Position numbers and translations under genes: made by a program. 64,000 nucleotides of DNA from Desulfovibrio sp. MES5 (lineage in GTDB: Bacteria > Desulfobacterota > Desulfovibrionia > Desulfovibrionales > Desulfovibrionaceae): positions 62,001 to 126,000 of the forward strand of contig NZ_MJUZ01000049.1 of assembly GCF_002237645.1 (NCBI RefSeq), read 5' to 3'. Shown in pieces: positions 14,527 through 56,123 of this stretch (positions are counted from its first letter, which is position 1; each line of letters starts with the position of its first letter). A model generated the notes under the pieces. It had not been told where the DNA came from, searched no databases, and saw only the letters and a program-made list of their open reading frames with translations.

Positions 14527-14552
14527 AGCAACGATATTTTGAATATTTTGTA

Positions 14553-14610
14553 GAAGAGGGACCCTTTTGCAAAAGGGTCCCTCTTCCACGTCCCCACCCC
14601 CCAAAATCTT
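14553..14610 (+). repeat. Family A hairpin repeat, 3' of cbiO
   Basis: A perfect 34-bp palindrome (GAAGAGGGACCC, TTTTGCAAAA, GGGTCCCTCTTC) followed by the family's CACGTCCCCACCCCCC tail. It begins 27 bp after the cbiO stop in the same orientation. The remainder of the gap to 15100 has the CTGATCTG...TTATCTGCTCT trailer found with other copies, and otherwise nothing coding. Confidence 0.85.
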
Positions 14611-15103
14611 TATCCTGTCTGTAATATTTCAGGGCCTTTACTGATCTGGTGCGAGGATCAAGCGACAGCGCCTTCCAGGCCTCACGCCATCTCAATTTAT
14701 CTGCTCTGAAAGCGTGTACGTGACACCGCGCTGGCTGCTGCAAGCGGGCGCTCTTTGTGGAGACTCAAGTGTGGATTGTCCGGCCCGCACCGCACAGGCA
14801 AGCAGCAGCGAGGCTTCAGCCGGTGGTTCGCTGGCGCTGCGGGCATAGCCTTGACTGCGGCCCGGCGGCATGATCAGTCAGAGACGCCGCAGAAGAGTTT
14901 ATCAACAATATTATGTAATAATACTATAATGTTCCACGCCAACACCAGATTTTATTCCGGCATGGCTCAGGGGTTCCAGATGGCTCAACACAGGAGCCCC
15001 CAATAGTTTTTTTACTAATCACATCTTCCAAACCCGGTGCTGCCTGTCAGTACTAGATTTCCTTGCTGGTATAAGATAATTTTCCAAAGGCACAATTCAC
15101 CTT

Positions 15104-24344: not shown

Positions 24345-24379
24345 ATGAGCTTTTTTGAGCGGCTTTTTTTTGAAATGCT

Positions 24380-24440
24380 TTGTGGGGGAGGGACCCTTTT
24401 GCAAAAGGGTCTCCTCCCCCACACCCCCTCCCCCTAAAAC
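24380..24440 (+). repeat. Family A hairpin repeat, 3' of livF
   Basis: TGAAATGCTTTGTGGGGGAG, GGACCCTTTTGCAAAAGGGT, CTCCTCCCCCACACC and the CCCCCTAAAAC tail. Placed downstream of the operon terminator and in its orientation. Confidence 0.85.
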
Positions 24441-24552
24441 CTTTATTAGCTTTTGGAGCTTGTTAAGGCTCCAAAAGGCACGCGAGGGCAGCGCGCTGGC
24501 CACGGCTTATTTTAAGGAAGCCCTGATTAAAGAGCCTCCTGGAAACGCTGAT

Positions 24553-28014: not shown

Positions 28015-28044
28015 CCCTTTTGTAATGTTGCGTTGATATACTTT

Positions 28045-28103
28045 TTGGGGGAGGGAACCTTTTGCAAAAGGGTCGCCTCCCCCACGCCCCCACCCCCTAA
28101 AAC
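28045..28103 (+). repeat. Family A hairpin repeat, 3' of the flavoprotein gene
   Basis: TTGGGGGAGGGAACC, TTTTGCAAAA, GGGTCGCCTCCCCCAC and GCCCCCACCCCCTAAAAC, 31 bp after the stop, same orientation. Confidence 0.85.
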
Positions 28104-28180
28104 TCTTAGCATGTTTTAGTATGGTGCAAAGCGTGTCGACCAGAGCGGAGTCAGAATCGTGATAAAAGACGACTGAACGC

Positions 28181-39823: not shown

Positions 39824-39990
39824 ATCTGAAGCTGACTACCTGCAAGAAAGTGCATTCTGCGCGTTTGCGGCGCGCCCGCTCCGGCGCTTGACCGAACCCA
39901 TAATCGCACGGACAGCCGCACTTGCGCATTAGATGCAATGTTTCCGCTTCACGTCAGAAAACTCGTTGTCCATACGAAAAGGCAATAAGA

Positions 39991-40055
39991 GTTTTAGGGG
40001 GTGGGGGCGTGGGGGAGGAGACTCTTTTGCAAAAGGGTCCCTCCCCCACAAAATA
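39991..40055 (-). repeat. Family A hairpin repeat, minus orientation, 3' of hypB
   Basis: Read on the minus strand: TTTTGTGGGGGAGGGACCC, TTTTGCAAAA, GAGTCTCCTCCCCCAC, GCCCCCACCCCCTAAAAC. It lies about 40-100 bp 3' of the minus-strand hypB and shares its orientation. The other bases of 39824-40096 hold nothing recognisable. Confidence 0.85.
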
Positions 40056-44452: not shown

Positions 44453-44585
44453 TGAAATGCTTTGTGGAGGGGGCGTGCCGGTTATCCCCTGCCCCAGCCG
44501 TATAGCTCCTTTTGAAATGCTTTGTGGGGGAGGGATCCTTTTGCAAAAGGGTCCCTCCCCCACGCCCCCACCCCCTAAAACCTTT
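44453..44585 (+). repeat. Family A hairpin repeat, tandem partial and full copies
   Basis: A shortened copy (TTGAAATGCTTTGTGGAGGG, ending near 44495) is followed by a full copy at 44511-44585 (TTTGAAATGCTTTGTGGGGG, AGGGATCC, TTTTGCAAAA, GGGTCCCTCCCCCAC, GCCCCCACCCCCTAAAAC). The trailer TTCTGATCTGAAGCGGG ... TTATCTGCTCT continues to ~44684. The rest of 44233-44976 shows no gene. Confidence 0.85.
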
Positions 44586-44976
44586 AGTGGCTTTATTATA
44601 TGGCAAAGGATTTTCTGATCTGAAGCGGGTTTCCTAAAACAATGTCTTTCAGGCAGCATTCCACCTCAAGGTTATCTGCTCTAATGAAGTTGCTCTCAGA
44701 GGGATATGGGCGGTACATGGCCTATTAATTTTCCGTCACTCAAGCGCAGGGACGTCACAGGGCAAAGACGGGCTAAGCGGGTTCATTAGTGCTGCCGCTT
44801 TTGCCAGCCTTCACCATCACAAATCTTCACCGTCACGGAAAAAACACACACATCGAACGGGCACGGCCACTTTTACGCTTCGGTCGGCCCTGTAAAAATC
44901 CCGGCAATGCAAGGTCTGCCGCCCTCTTGAATTTTATGTCCGATTTGGGCAGGGTGGCGAAAAAATTGAGGCTTTA

Positions 44977-45938: not shown

Positions 45939-48246
45939 AACTTTGACCGCCTGCGCGGCGGGGGACGGATTACGGAGCGGTGGCGGATTACTGCTGGTCT
46001 TCTGAACCGCCTACGCGGCGGTTAACATAAATGCAGGATAGGTGACGCCCCACAACATCTTCTAAGCCGCCTACGCGGCGGTTAACGATCCAACTGTTTC
46101 CGCTGCCTCCCGTACTGCCTTCTAAGCCGCCTACACGGCGGTTAACTTATAAAGGCCGCGCAGTATAGCTTGCATGTCCTTCTAAGCCGCCTACGCGGCG
46201 GTTAACTTTTCCAAAGAGCTTGTCAAGATTTGTCGCATCTTCTAAGCCGCCTACGCGGCGGTTAACTCTTGGTGTTGGTTGCGCCGTGTTCAACGTAACT
46301 TCTAAGCCGCCTACGCGGCGGTTAACGTCTTGATCAAAACATGAGATGCTCATCGGGTCTTCTAAGCCGCCTACGCGGCGGTTAACGTACGCGTACCGGA
46401 GGAAAACAAAGGGTATTGCTTCTAAGCCGCCTACGCGGCGGTTAACACGGCCTGCTGTGTTGGGGCGCGTGGCCCTCACTTCTAAGCCGCCTACGCGGCG
46501 GTTAACGGGATCTTCGCCCACGCTTTGCGCCGACTGCTCTTCTAAGCCGCCTACGCGGCGGTTAACCGGAGCAAGCCCTTGAGCCGCTTGTACGCGATCT
46601 TCTAAGCCGCCTACGCGGCGGTTAACTCAGGCGCAAAGGCCACAGAATAGCCGAGTGTCTTCTAAGCCGCCTACGCGGCGGTTAACGCAATGCCTCGCGC
46701 TGTATATCGCCCACACACCTTCTAAGCCGCCTACGCGGCGGTTAACAAAATCAGAACCTCGGCGCATGAAGCCGGGCCCTTCTAAGCCGCCTACGCGGCG
46801 GTTAACAAAATCAGAACCTCGGCGCATGAAGCCGGGCCCTTCTAAGCCGCCTACGCGGCGGTTAACTATACTTCTGGCCCGTTTGCAGTATATAACTTCT
46901 TCTAAGCCGCCTACGCGGCGGTTAACTCAGCATCCTTGAGTTGTTCACCCTTCGCGTTCTTCTAAGCCGCCTACGCGGCGGTTAACCCGGCCTGGTTACT
47001 GGCGTGCGCCGCCTTGCTCTTCTAAGCCGCCTACGCGGCGGTTAACCTCAACTACACACAGAAGTCATTCATCACTCTCTTCTAAGCCGCCTACGCGGCG
47101 GTTAACGTAGTCCGCGTCTTCAAACGTCCAATCGCCACCTTCTAAGCCGCCTACGCGGCGGTTAACGGTAGGCGCAAGCCAGCGCACCCCAAGCACGCCT
47201 TCTAAGCCGCCTACGCGGCGGTTAACGTACGCGTACCGGAGGAAAACAAAGGGTATTGCTTCTAAGCCGCCTACGCGGCGGTTAACACGGCCTGCTGTGT
47301 TGGGGCGCGTGGCCCTCACTTCTAAGCCGCCTACGCGGCGGTTAACGGTAATGGTCACTTCAAGGTACGTCTTGTATGCTTCTAAGCCGCCTACGCGGCG
47401 GTTAACGCAAAGAAGTATCTTGCTGAAAACGGCATGACCTTCTAAGCCGCCTACGCGGCGGTTAACGTGCGCATTTACGGCGTGGATTGTCCAGAGCTCT
47501 TCTAAGCCGCCTACGCGGCGGTTAACATCCATACGCCTCAATGCTAAATTGAGGACATCTTCTAAGCCGCCTACGCGGCGGTTAACGACTGCGTGTTTGT
47601 CACACTGTACAACCCTGTCTTCTAAGCCGCCTACGCGGCGGTTAACGCCACAGGGTTGACGCCTTCTGCCACCCTGGACTTCTAAGCCGCCTACGCGGCG
47701 GTTAACGGCACGCTTTTGCTACTGAAGCTATTGCCGAACTTCTAAGCCGCCTACGCGGCGGTTAACTGCACGCCTCCCACGCCGAGAGGCGACAAAAACT
47801 TCTAAGCCGCCTACGCGGCGGTTAACTACCTGCCGGGTCTACTCTCAGCTTCACCATCCTTCTAAGCCGCCTACGCGGCGGTTAACGTAATGGGGGCACC
47901 GGTAGCTTTGGAGGATTGCTTCTAAGCCGCCTACGCGGCGGTTAACTGGTTCTTCCCGATGGATCTTCAATCGATCTTCTTCTAAGCCGCCTACGCGGCG
48001 GTTAACGTGGTTTGTGCGAGGCAATCTGAACCCCATCTCTTCTAAGCCGCCTACGCGGCGGTTAACCTCACCTCCCCCGCCTTCGGCGCTTGCACCCCCT
48101 TCTAAGCCGCCTACGCGGCGGTTAACTTGATGAGCTGGTTTTCATAGCTGTCTGTTTTCTTCTAAGCCGCCTACGCGGCGGTTAACCCACTGCTGGTTGC
48201 ACCAGCGGGGGACGGTAACTTCTAAGCCGCCTACGCGGCGGTTAAC
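45939..48246 (-). CRISPR. Type I-F CRISPR array, 38 repeats plus one degenerate repeat
   Basis: Strict 60-bp period: 28-bp repeat plus 32-bp spacer. Read on the minus (crRNA) strand the repeat begins GTTAACCGCC, has a GCGTA loop and ends GGCGGCTTAGAAG; the CCGCC/GGCGG stem is the Cas6f hairpin. Repeats lie at 45999 + 60n to 48219; a degraded one is at 45939-45966, and the units at 45999 and 46119 each carry substitutions. The clean repeats at the high-coordinate end mark the leader side. There are 38 spacers, 35 distinct: 46747 = 46807; 46387 = 47227; 46447 = 47287. Confidence 0.98.
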
Positions 48247-48346
48247 TAGATACTTTCCGCAAAAAATATAACATATAAGGTATGTTACGTGTTTTTTGCA
48301 GCAGTATGCTTCATTATTTCAAGCCACACATAATACGTTTGAACTA
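48247..48346 (-). promoter_or_regulatory. CRISPR leader
   Basis: AT-rich 100 bp between cas1 and the first clean repeat. Contains an inverted repeat TAACATA (48269-48275) / TATGTTA (48281-48287) about 22 bp from the first repeat, a possible integration or transcription signal. Confidence 0.7.
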
Positions 48347-49298
48347 TTAACTATTTTCGCACAGCCCAATAATGAACCTGAAAAGATAGTCCAACACCTC
48401 CTGTTGCTGGCAACGCTCAATCAGCTCTTCCCTAAAATCCTTATGCGTTTTTTTGCCCGCAGCGCAGGTAAAGGCCGTTGGCATGACCAAGGCGTCCTTT
48501 ACTACGTCCGCAAAATCAAAAACCAAGGCTCCCCGCCGAGTTTTTCCGTGCAATACGGGCAAGGAAAAACTTATCCCAAGTCCGCACAATGCAACGGAGG
48601 CATACCCATAAGCGATGTAGTTTCCGTGATCGAGAAAAGCGTTACACACATCAGCGCGAGTGGCTCCGGCTCTTTTGCCTTCCTCACGGCTAAAGCTGAA
48701 GTCGAACGCTTTGGCCAAGATGCCATAAAGGGCCTTGGCCCATCTGGCCTCAGCAAGCAAAAGTTGCTGGGTGGATTCAGCACCCTCCACATCTTTGAGA
48801 AAAGACTCATGAAGAGCATTGGGGATGCCAATACTCGCCTTTTTGCAGATCCGCATTTTTTCGCCATTGACTTTCAGCATAGCTGGCGCGTTCTTTCAGC
48901 AGTTGTTTTCCAATTTTAACCCGCTCATTTTCGTCCAGCCATTTGACCATCCATGACTGCATATATTCTGTCGGACGATATTCACTTTGTGGCGGCATGA
49001 AAGCCATATCCAGAGCGCCAAAAAGCGGTGAGCCTCCAGACCCGCAAAACCCGACCATCACATGGGATTCGGCCATACGCCGCATGGCCGCATCCGTTAT
49101 GGATGACCCTTTGCCCAGCAAAACAAAGGCGGTGTTACGCTCCGGAAGATTGAAATATGACTCAATCTCTCCGCCGTCCTGCGTCGCGTAGACGATACGG
49201 TTGTCCATCTGCATCACGCGCACGTGTTCCAGATAAAACACATTGGCGCGCTTGGAGAGCATCACGGGCCGGGGATTAACCTGTTTTTTCTCCTTCAT
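48347..49298 (-). pseudogene. cas1: CRISPR integrase Cas1 (type I-F), frameshifted
   Basis: Two overlapping frames make one Cas1. The first (49298 to ~48845) starts MKEKKQVNPRPVMLSKRANV and includes the I-F hallmark VGFCGSGGSPLF and QSEYRPTEYMQSWMVKWLDE. It runs off into 12 unrelated residues. The second frame (~48850 to 48347) continues SIGIPNALHESF, with the catalytic region: Glu in LLLAEARWAKALYG, His in LPVLHGKTRRGALVFD, and Asp residues after it. The frames join near an AAAAA tract (48840-48844) or AAAAAA (48856-48861); removing one A restores a continuous ~317-aa protein. Either inactivation, a sequencing indel, or slippage. Lies between cas6f and the array instead of first. Confidence 0.9.
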
Positions 49299-49304
49299 GG
49301 CAGA

Positions 49305-49886
49305 TCACGGCAAGTCCGGTACACAAAAAAAGTTGTGCGCGCTGCACAGGCCATAACTATTCGGCAGGCACTCGGCCTGCGGCGGCGGCCCTGATTCACG
49401 GCGCACCGCCAGCGTAAAACGCTGCTCCGTGGTTTTGCTGCTAACAATAAAGTAGTCCATCTTCTCCTTTTGCACGGTCTGCATACGGCGCTGCCGCAGT
49501 TGCCCGGCCTCCGCACCAGTTCTACGGTCGCTATTCAAACTAGGTACACGATACCGCCTGAAGGCCACCCAGGCTCCCGCATAATTTTCAGGAACAGATG
49601 CGGGATATTGCAGCCTGGCATAGTCCCGTACCCAGGGCAGCCGAGAGAGCGAGGCCACCAGGGCATCCAGATCATCCCGACTGGAGGCGAATACCCGTAA
49701 TGCTCCTCCACCCCTGTCGCAGACGGCCTGACGCCCTGCCGGTATTGCCAGCGCATAGGTATGCGGCTTTGCCGCAAACAGGGGATGCAGTAAAGCCAGC
49801 ATGCGCCCCCGTAATGCGGGAGCGCTCATACCCGTGTCTTCAGTGGCGGCCAAGGCCTCAATGTCAAAATACACGCGCGGCATCAT
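49305..49886 (-). CDS. cas6f: CRISPR endoribonuclease Cas6f (Csy4)
   Basis: 193 aa. RGRMLALLHPLF includes His34, placed like the catalytic His29 of Pseudomonas Csy4; VAFRRYRVPSLNSDRR and an arginine-rich region (GQLRQRRMQTVQ) resemble the RNA-binding helix, and the C-terminal LPNSYGLCSAHNFF fits the family end. It cuts the pre-crRNA below the CCGCC stem and stays bound. Two bases after csy3 and six before cas1. Confidence 0.92.
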   Translation of the reverse strand: MMPRVYFDIEALAATEDTGMSAPALRGRMLALLHPLFAAKPHTYALAIPAGRQAVCDRGGGALRVFASSRDDLDALVASLSRLPWVRDYARLQYPASVPENYAGAWVAFRRYRVPSLNSDRRTGAEAGQLRQRRMQTVQKEKMDYFIVSSKTTEQRFTLAVRRESGPPPQAECLPNSYGLCSAHNFFCVPDLP

Positions 49887-49888
49887 GG

Positions 49889-50956
49889 CTATGCACTCTC
49901 TGAAAAGACGCCGCCGCGGATGATGCAGGCCATCAAAAACATGCCCTCGGCCGTATCGGGGTCCATATCGCCCGCTCGCAACATATAGCCGAAACCAGAG
50001 ACTTTTTTATCATTACGGAAAAAGAGCTGCGCATCCAGACTTGCGCCATTGGGTTCCACCGGGATGGCAAGGCCACGCTCTGTATAAGCTGGATACCAGG
50101 TATCAATAGTGCGCAGGGCATTGCCCACCTTCTGGTCGCGCAAAGCCGCCTGCCCGCGCTCCTGAACACTGTGCTTGTCCTGATTTTTCGGTACTTCGCC
50201 AACGCAATACAAAGGACGTGCAAAACCCTTGGCCTTATTTTCCAGATAGTTTTGGGAAGGGAACACTTCCAGAGCGCCACGTACCCCAAAGTCCACATCC
50301 GCCTCCACCAGTAAGGACACATCACGCTGCCCACGCAGCCCGGCGGCGATACGCTCGGCAACGGCCTTTTCTGCCTCGGAATAGGAATCAAACGTATTCA
50401 GGGGCATTTGCAGAGCGTCAAAACGAACATCCAGATCAGCCCTGTCCCGCACACGAACGCTCACATGCTCCGCAATGGCTCTGTTGCGCCACAAAAACCG
50501 TCCATTGGCCAGGTTGCGCGCATAGCGGCATGCGAGTTCTATCATGCCAGCGCTGGCCTTGCCATTATTGATAAAGGCAGTCAGCCCTTCCCTGAAGGCC
50601 GTCAGGTCGTCCATATCGTCCGCTTTCCCAGGCGCGCAGGCAAAAAGCGCCGATGAAAGATCAAGAAAACGCACATCAAAACGAACGCGCAACTTTTCAG
50701 CCAGGGGGTCAAGCTTGGCTGAATCTGTAGTCTGAATATTGGAAACTTCTTCGCGTGAAGCGCTTTTTACACTGGCATCGTCATTTTCTTTCTTGCCAGA
50801 TTTATTGATATTTTGCGTTCCCCTGATGCCATGACGCACGACGGGGAGCGGCGAAATACTGCCATCGGCAAACACATTGAAAAAAAGGGCGTCAGTAACC
50901 ATGAGGCAACGCTGAAATGAAAGAACACCGGGCAGTTTTTTAAGAGATTTTGCCAT
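49889..50956 (-). CDS. cas7f: Cascade backbone Cas7f (Csy3)
   Basis: 355 aa. Highly typical motifs: LPGVLSFQRCLMVTDALFF, YARNLANGRFLWRNR, ALEVFPSQ, KVGNALRTIDTWYP and a closing IIRGGVFSES. Six copies form the crRNA-binding backbone. Start fixed at 50956 (MAKSLKKLPGVLSF) after AAAAAGGAA; the longer frame to 51037 overlaps csy2. Confidence 0.95.
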   Translation of the reverse strand: MAKSLKKLPGVLSFQRCLMVTDALFFNVFADGSISPLPVVRHGIRGTQNINKSGKKENDDASVKSASREEVSNIQTTDSAKLDPLAEKLRVRFDVRFLDLSSALFACAPGKADDMDDLTAFREGLTAFINNGKASAGMIELACRYARNLANGRFLWRNRAIAEHVSVRVRDRADLDVRFDALQMPLNTFDSYSEAEKAVAERIAAGLRGQRDVSLLVEADVDFGVRGALEVFPSQNYLENKAKGFARPLYCVGEVPKNQDKHSVQERGQAALRDQKVGNALRTIDTWYPAYTERGLAIPVEPNGASLDAQLFFRNDKKVSGFGYMLRAGDMDPDTAEGMFLMACIIRGGVFSESA

Positions 50957-50979: not shown

Positions 50980-51798
50980 TTAGCGTTGTTCCTGATATAT
51001 TCTGTACACGTCGGGCGTTGCCCACTCTGATCTCCACAAAGTTTGCTCCGCCCTGTCTTCATCAAGGCAGCGGCGTATGGGTACATACTGCACAAGCCCC
51101 ACAAGCGGTTCCGCAAAGGCATGTTCGTACCCTTCACGCACGCCGGAGCGTTTTTCAAACGGGGTGGTGGCGGCATAACCAAGGCAGGTGGCAGAAAGCC
51201 AGCCCATGCCGTCGCCCTCCACAGGTTTGTGGCCCAGCGCGGCCACGAACTGCTCCGCGCGGTTGCCCGCACCTTCCTTTTCCAACAGGTCGCGGCGATC
51301 CATCACAGCATAGCCGACGCCTATATGCTCCAGAGCCTCACTGGCGTCACTGCACAAACGGACTTTGCCCATACGGGTAATCGCGCCGCCGGCAAGTCGG
51401 CTTGTTGCAATATGGGAATCAATGCCTTCAGTCGTAGCAAGGTCCCGGATGCCAATAACCAGAGAAACCTCCATATGGGCGCGGGCCACCGGCTGCAGGG
51501 ACAATGCCTGCTTGTTTTTGGAGGAATAGTCCGATCCGTTTAGGGATGAGCCGAAGGTATAGGCCGCTCCGCGACGTAACTGCGGGTTGAATATACCGTA
51601 AAATGAATCACCTAGCGGCGTGTAGCTGTGCAGTATAAAAGCCATTGCAAGCACGTCGTCCGCCATATCTATTTTGCGGCCAAGAGCGTGCGCCATGAGC
51701 CATGCCGCAAGTACTGGCGGGCCGCCCACAAGAAAGGCGGCATTATACATGTTGGCGCCCTGAACCCGCATATGCGGTAGAACAAGATAGGCTGTCAT
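50980..51798 (-). CDS. cas5f: Cascade subunit Cas5f (Csy2)
   Basis: 272 aa. LVLPHMRVQGANMYNAAF, AHMEVSLVIGIRD and SRLAGGAITRMGKVRL correspond to the N-terminal strand, the central beta strand and the RLAGGxI motif of Csy2. It caps the 5' end of the crRNA with Csy1. Shorter than Pseudomonas Csy2 (about 327 aa). Overlaps csy1 by 4 bp. Confidence 0.93.
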   Translation of the reverse strand: MTAYLVLPHMRVQGANMYNAAFLVGGPPVLAAWLMAHALGRKIDMADDVLAMAFILHSYTPLGDSFYGIFNPQLRRGAAYTFGSSLNGSDYSSKNKQALSLQPVARAHMEVSLVIGIRDLATTEGIDSHIATSRLAGGAITRMGKVRLCSDASEALEHIGVGYAVMDRRDLLEKEGAGNRAEQFVAALGHKPVEGDGMGWLSATCLGYAATTPFEKRSGVREGYEHAFAEPLVGLVQYVPIRRCLDEDRAEQTLWRSEWATPDVYRIYQEQR

Positions 51799-52943
51799 CG
51801 AAACGCCTCCTCCATAATGGCCTCAAGGCTGACGCGGGCAGACGAATCCAGCTTCAAAAGACTCTGCCCGGTGCCTTTGTGGGGCATCAGCATTCTGCTG
51901 ACCGCCAGCCGTGCCATGGCGCGGGGCCAGTTATTGCAAAGCCCGCGTACCGATGGGTCCAGTAATCCCCTGATTTCCAGCGGCCGCACGAGGGGCGAAA
52001 CACGGGCATGACGCGGCGGGTCCAGTTCGGGCAGAAGCTCGTCTTCCGGCAGAAGGTGCGCATGCTGCGCCAGCAGTTCCTGAGCCTCTGCCGCCATATC
52101 CAGCACGGCGAGCGCAATGGCGGCAACAAGCTCCTCTTCCCGCTCCCTTTCCCTCAAGGTAACTGTGCTTTCATCCGGTTCCGCCCTCAGCACCTCTTCG
52201 CGAAAAGCGGCGTACGTCTGGACAGCTTCCCTAAAGGGACCGAGTGCATGTACATCAAGCGACAGGCCTTTATGGTACAACGCGAAGGCCTCACGTGTTG
52301 AGGCAGACGTTCCTGGAGCCGACACCATAAGAGGACGTTGCATGTAGCTCGCCAAGTAGCCGACATTCAATGGTTTGGAACCTCCTATACCGAACTGAGC
52401 CTGACGCAGTTTTCGCCTCGGTCCGTCTGGTTCAACCTTTACGGCCTCATTATGGCGCTGCACGAGCCCCTGTTCACGGTCAAAAAACAGCGGACAAATG
52501 CTGCTTGCTGTCATAGGCGTCATGCTCACATAGCCGCCCGGCGCGTCTTTTTTGGGAATAAGCAACTGGCGCAGGCGGTGGTCCACATACTTCATTCCGG
52601 TTCTGAAGCCGGAAGCATTGGCAGCCGCGATGCCTTCAACAATTGCCTTTTTTTCCTCAGTCCCCACGTCTTTCGCTTCCGGAGCGTCAGTAAGAACCCA
52701 GTTGATCTGCTTGACGATGCCTGCCTTGGCTGCCCCGCCTTCCGCATATTCCAATGGGAATGAAAGGCCGCTCGCCAGAAGGGTACGCAACGAAACATAA
52801 GGCATATCCAGTGCGTCTTCAGGCCCGAGGCGTACGCCTGCAGCAATTGCGTTGGAGTTGACTACCTTCGCGGTAAAATGAACAAGCCCTTTTATTTCTT
52901 CTTGATAGTTTTTGGTGGAAAACATCTTCCATTCGTCTTTCAT
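51795..52943 (-). CDS. cas8f: Cascade large subunit Cas8f (Csy1)
   Basis: 382 aa. Sequence is divergent but matches Csy1 in QFGIGGSKPLNVGYLASYMQ (Pseudomonas: QKFGGTKPQN) and in the final LCNNWPRAMARL region. Csy1 recognises the GG PAM and starts unwinding. Somewhat shorter than the usual ~430 aa. AAAGGAGCGCC before the ATG; 33 bp after cas2-3. Confidence 0.87.
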   Translation of the reverse strand: MKDEWKMFSTKNYQEEIKGLVHFTAKVVNSNAIAAGVRLGPEDALDMPYVSLRTLLASGLSFPLEYAEGGAAKAGIVKQINWVLTDAPEAKDVGTEEKKAIVEGIAAANASGFRTGMKYVDHRLRQLLIPKKDAPGGYVSMTPMTASSICPLFFDREQGLVQRHNEAVKVEPDGPRRKLRQAQFGIGGSKPLNVGYLASYMQRPLMVSAPGTSASTREAFALYHKGLSLDVHALGPFREAVQTYAAFREEVLRAEPDESTVTLREREREEELVAAIALAVLDMAAEAQELLAQHAHLLPEDELLPELDPPRHARVSPLVRPLEIRGLLDPSVRGLCNNWPRAMARLAVSRMLMPHKGTGQSLLKLDSSARVSLEAIMEEAFR

Positions 52944-52976: not shown

Positions 52977-55900
52977 TCAAGTTATTCGCCGTATGCCAAA
53001 ACCCAGATCATATATGAAACTATCATCTTTAGTATTATATGAGGTCAGCTCGGCTTGCAGGCCTTCTTCCGGCCATATGCCCGCCTCATGGCACAAGCTT
53101 TCCATTTCCGGCGGGCTGAGCGCCAGCCAGGCATTGGGTGCGGCCTTTTCTTCGAGCATTTCATGTTTGTTGTGCACCCAGCTTGCGCCGTGAGAATCCT
53201 CATCCCAACGAAAATACAGCGCATTTTCGCCTTCAAGTTGCATCCGCCAAAGCTGCTTGCGCCCTGCCCTGTTACGCAGTGGCGTTTGCTCATAGGGCGT
53301 GGCCGACATGCGAAAGGCATCTATGGGACTGCGGCTGAACAGCCCCTCACCTCCATCACTGTCTGCGCCAAAAAACCGCGTAACCCTCGTGGCGATGGCC
53401 GTGTCATCAGCAATGGCAAAGTCACTGCCACCGCCAAGCCGCAACCCGGCATCAATGGTGAGCGCCTCCGCCTGCCAGGGCAGTAACTGGGCAAGATCAT
53501 GCTCTTTATATCGCTTCACCTGCCTTTTGCCTTCGTATCCAGGAAAGATAAAAGCACGAGTATCTTTCGTTCCCTGTTCGCAATTTTTACAGTGACGCAA
53601 ATTGTATCTTAGCACGGCAATATTGTGCGCATTGTCGCAGAAAACGAGACGGTGCCTGTTCACACGCCCAGCAACCTGAACAATGGACTGCGCGCTGGAA
53701 GGCTCAATGACAGCCCAGTCAAAGTCGTGATCCCTGCCCACCTCTTCCACTGGCGTGGCCACAACAATGAAAGGCACTTGCGGCTTCGTGGCGCGGGCCA
53801 CAAGCCCCCGCATTTCCTTGTCTGCGAGGATATGGGCATTCCCTCTCTTGCGGGTCAGCAGATGGTCGAGGCGGCGCTCTTTATGAAACCGGCTGATGCG
53901 CCAGTCGCCCGAGTGATAGCAGGCCACATGGGCATGGGGCAGCGCCTGAGCCAGACTGCGCGCCGTGGCCACAGCCCCGTTGATATTTGCCACACGCACA
54001 AGGCCAAAAGAAATCTGCCTGCCCGACGAAAACTCCCAGGCGTTTTCTGTGTGCAGGCGCTGCACCGCTTCCAGCACCGCAATCTGAAACCCCTGTATGG
54101 AGGGCTCCACCGGTTGTAAAAAAGCCCGTCGCAGGCTGGGCATGCGTTGCAAATGGGACGTCATATCCCTCATGCGTTTGGCATACCATTCTGAAAATGC
54201 AGCGCTTTTGTTGTCAAAAACCAGGACCTCCGGCGCGAGGTTGTCATCAATGACGGCAATGCCTGAAAGTGCGGGAGGGGCGTCTGCCTCTTGCGTCAAT
54301 GCGTGCCGGAGCTTCTGCCCGGAAATCCAGGCGACATGGACGGCGTCAGCCGTGGCCTGAGAAAGCGTGGCCGAAGAACAGACGATATTGCGCCCGAAAA
54401 AAGCGCTCAGTTGCACCAGCCGCAAGACCGCCACAAGGGCTTCCGGCTCATAACCGTCAACCTCGTCCAGCACCAGATCGGCCGTCATGAGGCGCAGCAG
54501 GGCTTTGACGTGATGCCCCTGCCGGTCAGGCCGACCGGCGGCATCCAGAAAATCAATGGTAGACACCAGCAAGGGTGAACCGACGATCACCCTTTCGCGT
54601 TCCGTGCGCCAGAATGGTTCCATCCAGGCAGGCAATGGGCCGGAATCGCCGCTGCACATGATCTCGGATTCGACCACATCCCGATCATCAATGTTTTCTG
54701 CCCGCTTGGCCCAGTCAAAAAGCCTTTGGGTGACGCCATCGCCGATGACCGTGGCCATGTCGGCGGGCAAAATGCCAAGGTCAGATTGCAGAGAGTGCCC
54801 TGTCTGCAAGGTCAAGCTGCGCAAATTGAGCGCAATGGAGCAGCGCGGCGCGGCATCACGCGAAAGAATGCAGGCCGCACGCAGGTTCATTCTTGTCTTG
54901 CCGCTGCCTGTACCAGCCATATTGAAAACAAGGCAGGGCGTGTCGGGATTATCCAGTCGCCAGCGGGCCAAAGCATCGGCAGCGAGGTTTTGCCAGTGAT
55001 AACGTGAGGCTTCGTCCGCTGGTTCCGTAATGGACGCCACTGAAGCCTCTTGCAGACCTTCAAGCGGGCCCGCTGTGCTCTGCGTCAGTTGGCCCATGCG
55101 CCATGCGGCGTTGGCGGCTACATGGGCCACTTCAGTCAAATGCCAGCGCAGCGGCTGGTTGAGGACGCGTTTGTTTTCGACAAATCGGGTATTGGCGGCG
55201 CTTGTGCCGTCATCAAGAGGGGTGGGATATGCTCTGGCGGAAACAGTGTGGTCAGCAAAAATGAGTGCTGCCCGAGCCAGAATAAGGCATGCCCACCAGA
55301 ATTCCGTATGCTCCTTACCCTGGAGCGTCTCGGACAGCGCGCTCAGCTTTGATTCAAGCCGCTGAAAATTTTTCCATATGTCCTTGGGTAGGGACTCGTG
55401 GGGCTGGCTGTAGTCTTGAGGAACATTCTTTGAACGGACATGGGAAGCCTCCACTGAAGGGACGCTTCCACCGTCTTCACCGCCAGAAAAAAGCAAATGG
55501 TGGCTTGCCACAAGAAAATCAATGGCTTCCAAAGCGGTGGCTGGGGCGTGATACGCCCTTGAACCCGGGCCTGTTGGACGTTTTATGACGACGTTAAGCG
55601 CCGCATCGTCATGCAAAACCTGCCATGCCTCCTGCCAGCTTGCACCCTGCCGCAAAGCGCGCAGCAGGCAGACGGATATCCACTCATGGCGCACATCATC
55701 ACGCAGCATTTTGGGATCGCGCAGTTTATTTTGAAAGTATGCTGAATACTTGCCGAGGTCATGAACCAGTGCGGCAGCCTGCGCCAACAGGCAGACACAG
55801 CGAAGCCAGAGCGGGGTTTCTGCCGCGCGCCTGACAAAACGCCGTGAGGTTCGCACGGCAACAGCGCCGTCAGCAGAAAACCTGCCCCGCGCGCCCACAA

Positions 55901-56123
55901 TCCACAGCAAACGCATACGGCGGCGGCCGTCATTCTGATAACAGGCCACCGCCGTATTGCGGGTTGCGCTTTTGCGAAGAGCAGCATGAAGTTCTGCCAG
56001 CCCTTCACGGGTTATGGGCGTCATCCATGTGCGAATACCGGCTCTTGGCGCGTAGCTATCTAAAATCCTTTGCGTTCTTGAAACTGATTTTCGTGTGCAT
56101 TCAGAAATAAGAACAACATGCAT
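52977..56123 (-). CDS. cas2-3: Cas2-Cas3 fusion nuclease-helicase, type I-F
   Basis: 1048 aa. Residues 1-95 are the fused Cas2 domain (MHVVLISECTRKSVSRTQRI, RNTAVACYQNDGRR), typical of I-F. The HD nuclease follows (ALVHDLGKYSAYFQNKL, ~115-130). The helicase has Walker A MAGTGSGKTRMNLRAA, DEVD box VLDEVDGYEPEAL and CSSATLSQAT, with motif VI VAGRVNRHR. It degrades DNA marked by Cascade and partners Cas1. First gene of the operon; GAGG 8 bp before the ATG. Apparently intact. Confidence 0.96.
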   Translation of the reverse strand: MHVVLISECTRKSVSRTQRILDSYAPRAGIRTWMTPITREGLAELHAALRKSATRNTAVACYQNDGRRRMRLLWIVGARGRFSADGAVAVRTSRRFVRRAAETPLWLRCVCLLAQAAALVHDLGKYSAYFQNKLRDPKMLRDDVRHEWISVCLLRALRQGASWQEAWQVLHDDAALNVVIKRPTGPGSRAYHAPATALEAIDFLVASHHLLFSGGEDGGSVPSVEASHVRSKNVPQDYSQPHESLPKDIWKNFQRLESKLSALSETLQGKEHTEFWWACLILARAALIFADHTVSARAYPTPLDDGTSAANTRFVENKRVLNQPLRWHLTEVAHVAANAAWRMGQLTQSTAGPLEGLQEASVASITEPADEASRYHWQNLAADALARWRLDNPDTPCLVFNMAGTGSGKTRMNLRAACILSRDAAPRCSIALNLRSLTLQTGHSLQSDLGILPADMATVIGDGVTQRLFDWAKRAENIDDRDVVESEIMCSGDSGPLPAWMEPFWRTERERVIVGSPLLVSTIDFLDAAGRPDRQGHHVKALLRLMTADLVLDEVDGYEPEALVAVLRLVQLSAFFGRNIVCSSATLSQATADAVHVAWISGQKLRHALTQEADAPPALSGIAVIDDNLAPEVLVFDNKSAAFSEWYAKRMRDMTSHLQRMPSLRRAFLQPVEPSIQGFQIAVLEAVQRLHTENAWEFSSGRQISFGLVRVANINGAVATARSLAQALPHAHVACYHSGDWRISRFHKERRLDHLLTRKRGNAHILADKEMRGLVARATKPQVPFIVVATPVEEVGRDHDFDWAVIEPSSAQSIVQVAGRVNRHRLVFCDNAHNIAVLRYNLRHCKNCEQGTKDTRAFIFPGYEGKRQVKRYKEHDLAQLLPWQAEALTIDAGLRLGGGSDFAIADDTAIATRVTRFFGADSDGGEGLFSRSPIDAFRMSATPYEQTPLRNRAGRKQLWRMQLEGENALYFRWDEDSHGASWVHNKHEMLEEKAAPNAWLALSPPEMESLCHEAGIWPEEGLQAELTSYNTKDDSFIYDLGFGIRRIT

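Follow-up and report, generated by a model that had tools for sequence, protein, structure and literature searches.

The locus considered here raises the question of whether a CRISPR system with type I-F effector genes, in which cas1 is interrupted and the genes for interference are still in place, has lost the capacity to acquire spacers, or whether the interruption reflects a sequencing error, is overcome during expression, or divides a protein that functions in two parts. The operon is encoded on the minus strand of the window, a term that denotes here the entire stretch of 64,000 nucleotides that was analysed (G000:C49:62001-126000), in a draft genome of 3.47 Mb and 52 contigs. It begins with a cas2-3 fusion (cas3f; 52977..56123, minus strand, as are all of the features of the locus described below), which matches TIGR02562 over residues 1-1044 of 1048 (E 6.8e-223, above the cut-off for that profile), and continues with csy1 (cas8f; 51795..52943), recognized only by PADLOC as Cas8f (1.6e-32) and displaying no NCBIfam or Pfam match at a threshold of 0.001; csy2 (cas5f; 50980..51798), which falls below its NCBIfam cut-off and above that of Pfam, and is also called by PADLOC; csy3 (cas7f; 49889..50956), identified by NCBIfam and PADLOC, with its start codon set by comparison with a related genome (G017); and cas6f (csy4; 49305..49886), identified by NCBIfam, Pfam and PADLOC. 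The products of cas2-3, csy3 and cas6f all score above their respective NCBIfam cut-offs, and all five genes align over their full length with those of three relatives (G017, G018 and G078), with the exception of the start of csy3, where the first 20 codons of the longest open reading frame in G017 and G078 are unaligned and lie upstream of the likely start; the alignment with cas2-3 of G018 reaches residue 1046 of 1048. A first-pass annotation of the same DNA had described the locus as otherwise intact, and in view of the profile matches and alignments of the five effector genes that description was borne out.

The locus shares with subtype I-F (Csy) the Cas2-3 fusion, Csy1-3, Cas6f, a repeat of 28 bp, spacers of 32 nt and a CC protospacer-adjacent motif (PAM). 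In the usual I-F gene order cas1 comes first, as it does in another member of the same order of bacteria (G025); in the window, by contrast, it is the last gene of the operon, adjoining the leader, and it is also broken. The effector genes of the subtype are present, but a full-length Cas1f is represented only by two separate frames, and from its sequence the locus is best assigned to I-F on its effector genes, its adaptation gene being defective; a complete I-F system is not claimed. Elsewhere in the window, a short and partly palindromic element resembling REP or MITE sequences (from L153:4626-4746) recurs at 44513-44629, 39983-40053, 24371-24447, 28042-28108, 14542-14611, 1168-1215 and at other positions, and G078 and G017 each contain dozens of matches to it.

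The N-terminal reading frame of cas1 (48807..49298) encodes 163 amino acids that match positions 1-148 of the Cas1f profile TIGR03637 (E 3.4e-60), and the C-terminal frame (48347..48880) encodes 177 amino acids that match positions 157-305 of the same profile (E 6.6e-53); the two overlap over 48807-48880 (74 nt). Left of the junction, nucleotide substitutions fall predominantly at third positions of one frame (26 of 30 against G017 and 25 of 28 against G078), and right of it at third positions of a different frame (41 of 46 and 34 of 41, respectively). Because the third-position pattern switches frame at the junction, the change of frame is beyond chance, and the reading frames, the two halves of the profile match and the distribution of substitutions together confirm that cas1 is split over two frames. 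When the intact Cas1 of G017 was aligned with chain 5fcl_A, the E, H and D motif positions, which we take to be the catalytic residues of Cas1, fell in the C-terminal half, as had been proposed initially.

An alignment of four genomes located one extra base in the window's cas1 that is absent from G017, G078 and G018. The first-pass annotation had described this change as a +1 shift at either of two A tracts. One of these, a run of 6 A, is of equal length in the window and in all three relatives, and is ruled out as the site of the change. The other, a run of 5 A, has counterparts of 4 (G017), 5 (G078) and 8 A (G018), each of which keeps the frame, and the bases that flank it vary among the four aligned genomes; the single alignment column occupied by the window only is therefore ambiguous in its placement, such that the extra base can be assigned only to the interval of approximately 48830..48844, which holds the 5-A run and the adjoining variable bases, and need not be an A. 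The description of one extra base was upheld; placing that base within the 5-A run aligns the window most simply with G017, but the data do not compel this placement.

Unbroken cas1 genes encoding 316-317 amino acids, in the same operon with the same gene order, are found in the three congeners G017, G078 and G018. In the first of these, DNA identity amounts to 91% over cas1 and the leader, a conserved sequence of approximately 100 bp between cas1 and the first repeat (48247..48346). Close relatives thus possess intact orthologues and the break is specific to one lineage, as is the case for a recent pseudogene; this comparison, which the first-pass annotation had itself proposed, is blind to the distinction between a real mutation and a read error. 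Across a wider sample, csy3 is present in 21 of 348 genomes from the order, the window's own included, and 18 of those 21 encode a full-length Cas1f frame. The three exceptions are the window's genome, with two frames; G070, with a match of 31 positions; and G255, with none. In G255 (L145-L146; G255:C1:62001-92000), matches to cas3, csy2 and csy3 were found and no match to cas1 within 30 kb around them, and the open reading frames of at least 120 amino acids upstream of cas3 are, as judged by eye, unlike cas genes.

Nine of the 21 csy3-bearing genomes belong to a divergent I-F lineage in which cas1 is the last gene, adjoining the leader in those that were inspected; in all nine (the window's genome, G017, G078, G018, G070, G149, G237, G250 and G124) csy3 is followed, on the same strand, by cas1 or by what is left of it. 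Three further observations concern the distribution of such genes. In G094 (L039:981-1956), a genome of 1.41 Mb that is assigned to the same genus and lies outside the 21, matches to I-F Cas1 extend over two overlapping open reading frames; relatives of Cas1 that are 60-66% identical to the G017 protein are found in IMG/VR contigs classed as viral (L175, L176 and L177); and a scan of genome contigs confirmed one locus, that of Desulfovibrio sp. OH1186_COT-070.

Taken on the sequence evidence, the window's cas1 is probably a very recent pseudogene that arose by insertion of one base. Spacer acquisition in I-F systems requires an integrase formed by Cas1 and Cas2-3. A base inserted near codon 153 would lead to a stop approximately 10 codons later and to the loss of full-length Cas1; without Cas1, no Cas1:Cas2-3 integrase would form and the array would be frozen at its 37 spacers, and Cas2-3, Csy1-3 and Cas6f could still produce crRNA and cut DNA using the spacers already present. 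We infer that the insertion is present in the cell, that acquisition is off, and that interference is working. So read, the change is an ordinary loss of function, a known kind of event that involves no new mechanism.

The array (45999..48246) comprises 38 repeats of 28 bp and 37 spacers, every one of which is 32 nt in length once a mutated repeat (number 36 from the leader) is counted. Spacer 24 is identical to spacer 25 (46747-46838), a duplication within the array, and spacers 16-17 are identical to 30-31, within 150 identical bases situated 840 bp apart (46359-46508 and 47199-47348), a duplication of a block. Spacers were searched for in 79 genomes of the genus, among them that of the window, with three candidates scored in most genomes, such that some protospacers may have been missed, and also in a region of G078; spacers 4 (48007..48038), 19 and 21 matched a single stretch of G078 with zero mismatches, and spacer 24/25 matched the same stretch with two. 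This prophage stretch, in which the match of spacer 4 is accompanied by a CC PAM, encodes terminase, portal and major head proteins (three of its seven proteins are so named, and two of the seven gave no match), and shuffled spacers produced no match within it in 20 rounds. Additional targets were found for spacer 35 in G021 (two mismatches) and for spacer 18 in G044 (three mismatches).

The PAM of I-F systems is given as 5'-CC (GG on the target strand) in the accessible portion of one study (PMC4117759). In agreement, CC adjoins six of the seven targets that have between zero and three mismatches (those of spacers 4, 18, 19, 21, 24/25 and 35), and two matches of spacer 8 with five mismatches, both in G023, lack it. 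The exception among the seven is spacer 10 (47647..47678), a 32/32 copy of part of the fliD gene of its own genome (G000:C30:20442-20473), where GG is found in place of the expected CC. Since spacer 10 matches its own fliD perfectly and no site in the fliD regions of G017 and G078 comes closer to it than 9 differences in 32 positions, it was most simply acquired after the split from those two genomes; nine spacers lie on its leader side. The fliD site should escape cleavage, given the GG on its PAM side, and the self match is therefore uninformative with regard to interference; it was dropped as proof that interference is dead. On these features of its sequence, the array looks recently active.

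Comparisons of the array with broader collections added little to this picture: no match was found among 50,697 phage records, and a search of plasmids returned 10 records, four of which had at least 80% query coverage at approximately 64-67% identity, a result that would be expected from arrays whose repeats are related. In IMG/VR, exact searches found no match for spacers 1, 2 and 6, and for spacer 4 found one contig, which shares 14,155 bp at 100% identity with the G078 region and is hence not independent of it. The repeat variant GTTAACC, considered as a marker of turnover specific to the window, was discarded upon being found in G078 as well.

Two properties of the locus bear on the age of the break. 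When substitutions in cas1 were polarised on G017 and G078, 35 of the 38 on the window's branch were at third positions (17 of 17 in the N-terminal half and 18 of 21 in the C-terminal half), compared with 32 of 38 and 23 of 30 on the intact branches leading to G017 and G078, respectively, with no difference from the window (p 0.16). The window's cas1 thus bears the mark of purifying selection with no relaxation detectable, as would be anticipated for a break that either is very young or is not real. The leader end of the array is similarly undecayed: 36 repeats are identical and the two that deviate are the 36th and the 38th counted from the leader, such that the first 35 repeats (980 bp) contain no mutation. 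In arrays accompanied by an intact cas1, the deviant repeats are numbers 48, 51 and 57 of 67 in G078, 99 and 102 of 103 in G017, and 35, 50 and 51 of 51 in G018.

The locus in G070 (L092:14340-20000 and L093; G070:C2:529340-536221) differs from that of the window. Its cas1 ends after 42 codons, the leader is gone and the first repeat directly adjoins the truncated gene, and repeats 1, 2, 6, 7, 8 and 12 are mutated. Its csy1, csy2, csy3 and cas6f are full length and in the same order, with 69-89% amino-acid identity; the first 33 residues of its cas2-3 were not found, the alignment beginning at residue 34. For that last reason, G070 was set aside as a clean case of fully retained interference. 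On sequence grounds it appears to represent an older and broader loss than that of the window, and it forms a partial precedent for the loss of acquisition with retention of interference genes. The initial claim that, if the break is real, the array cannot grow while the interference genes stay in place stands as the best-supported reading of the locus, in which acquisition would be lost and the interference genes retained, with G070 providing only part of a precedent for it.

The two genomes provide a useful contrast between a cas1 that would be just broken, with no mutations in 35 repeats at the leader end, and a cas1 and leader apparently long lost, with 8 changes in the first 21 repeats (588 bp; Fisher p 0.0004), with the reservation that the deletion in G070 may have taken repeats at the leader end, such that its present first repeat is perhaps not the original one. 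Decay of the leader-end repeats may record the time elapsed since an array stopped growing, although such a clock may be slowed by gene conversion or by selection on the repeats, and these genomes would allow that idea to be tested.

The same lack of decay is what would be seen if the extra base were an artefact of the 52-contig draft assembly and cas1 were intact in the strain. This explanation, the strongest of the alternatives to a real insertion, is unlikely, but carries appreciable weight: the genome is a draft, the site contains a homopolymer, and with neither cas1 nor the leader end of the array showing decay, the single base looks just as a read error would. Against it, a census of genes with third-position bias, in which a shift was flagged if it was uncompensated and lay over 180 nt away from both gene ends, revealed no further isolated interior shift of one base peculiar to this genome in 77 genes of contig C49 and 82 genes of contig C11, as compared with G078. 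On C49 (298 interior runs of at least five), three genes were flagged against G078: cas1, a gene in which four indels sum to zero, the compensation lying nearer the gene end, and a gene that is split at the same place between G078 and G017 as well. Against G017 (78 genes, 314 runs), four were flagged: cas1, one gene with multiple indels, and two with shifts near the start of the reading frame (192 and 281 nt from it) that are absent against G078. On the 200 kb of C11 (270 runs), both of the flags against G078 were clusters of multiple indels. In the reverse direction, there were three flags with single indels in G017 and one in G078. Over the 333 kb inspected, the assembly does not appear to handle homopolymers badly in general, and a single error at this site retains the modest probability given above.

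A second alternative, in which the A run provokes slippage by RNA polymerase or a +1 shift by ribosomes and so yields a little full-length Cas1 and slow acquisition, is highly improbable. Such rescue would account for the appearance of constraint in both frames, the 74-nt overlap between them and the signs of recent activity in the array, and the length of the run varies between relatives, reaching 8 A in G018. The shift that is needed is +1, and a -1 slippery heptamer would not serve. The window's runs of 5 and 6 A are, however, below the lengths at which slippage has been observed: the available text of one study reports slippage by E. coli RNA polymerase as undetected below eight As or seven Ts (PMC6260861), and that of another reports selection against runs as evident at nine nucleotides in a large share of genomes (PMC1088944). 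Furthermore, the length of the run is not conserved (4, 5 and 8 A), three relatives encode Cas1 without any shift, and no stimulatory fold was found, the RNA of the site and of the sequence that follows it being no more stably folded than shuffled sequences (z -0.72). The suggestion in the first-pass annotation that slippage might supply a minor amount of full Cas1 was not supported by these observations, and poly-A slippage was rejected as the main reading.

It is exceedingly unlikely that an active integrase is assembled from two separately translated halves of Cas1: the C-terminal frame does begin with an ATG (48880) that lies within the N-terminal frame, and carries the E, H and D positions, but that ATG is also present in the three intact relatives and is thus not a new start, the Cas1f of 18 of the 21 csy3-bearing genomes sampled in the order is encoded in a single full-length frame, and the other two defective genomes are without two halves of working size. 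A second cas1 acting in trans was dismissed, since profile searches with PF01867 and TIGR03637 found no further Cas1 in the genome.

The outcome that a recent pseudogene in the window would represent, in which cas1 is lost and other cas genes are kept, is already known. In the accessible parts of the corresponding reports, Moritella viscosa LFI 5006 is described as having a Csy-type (I-F) locus with a 'dispersed cas1' and a truncated cas3' (PMC5399434), and strains of Ligilactobacillus salivarius as having split cas genes, which are considered there in connection with self-targeting spacers (PMC11288051). In those instances further genes are affected or the subtype is a different one, whereas the change in the window is of one base and affects cas1 only. 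Among the titles listed by literature searches, none dealt with this locus itself.

A broader proposal, that in the I-F lineage with cas1 as its last gene selection repeatedly shuts off acquisition and keeps much of the interference machinery, is speculative and decidedly doubtful. The motive for such repeated loss would perhaps be the uptake of self DNA, as exemplified by the match of spacer 10 to the organism's own fliD. In the boldest form of the proposal, the short A-rich site (4, 5 and 8 A in relatives) would make the switch reversible. If the proposal were true, the window would capture a locus just after the switch and G070 one at a much later stage, and, with acquisition having been shut off repeatedly within one lineage, the cost of acquisition would become measurable.
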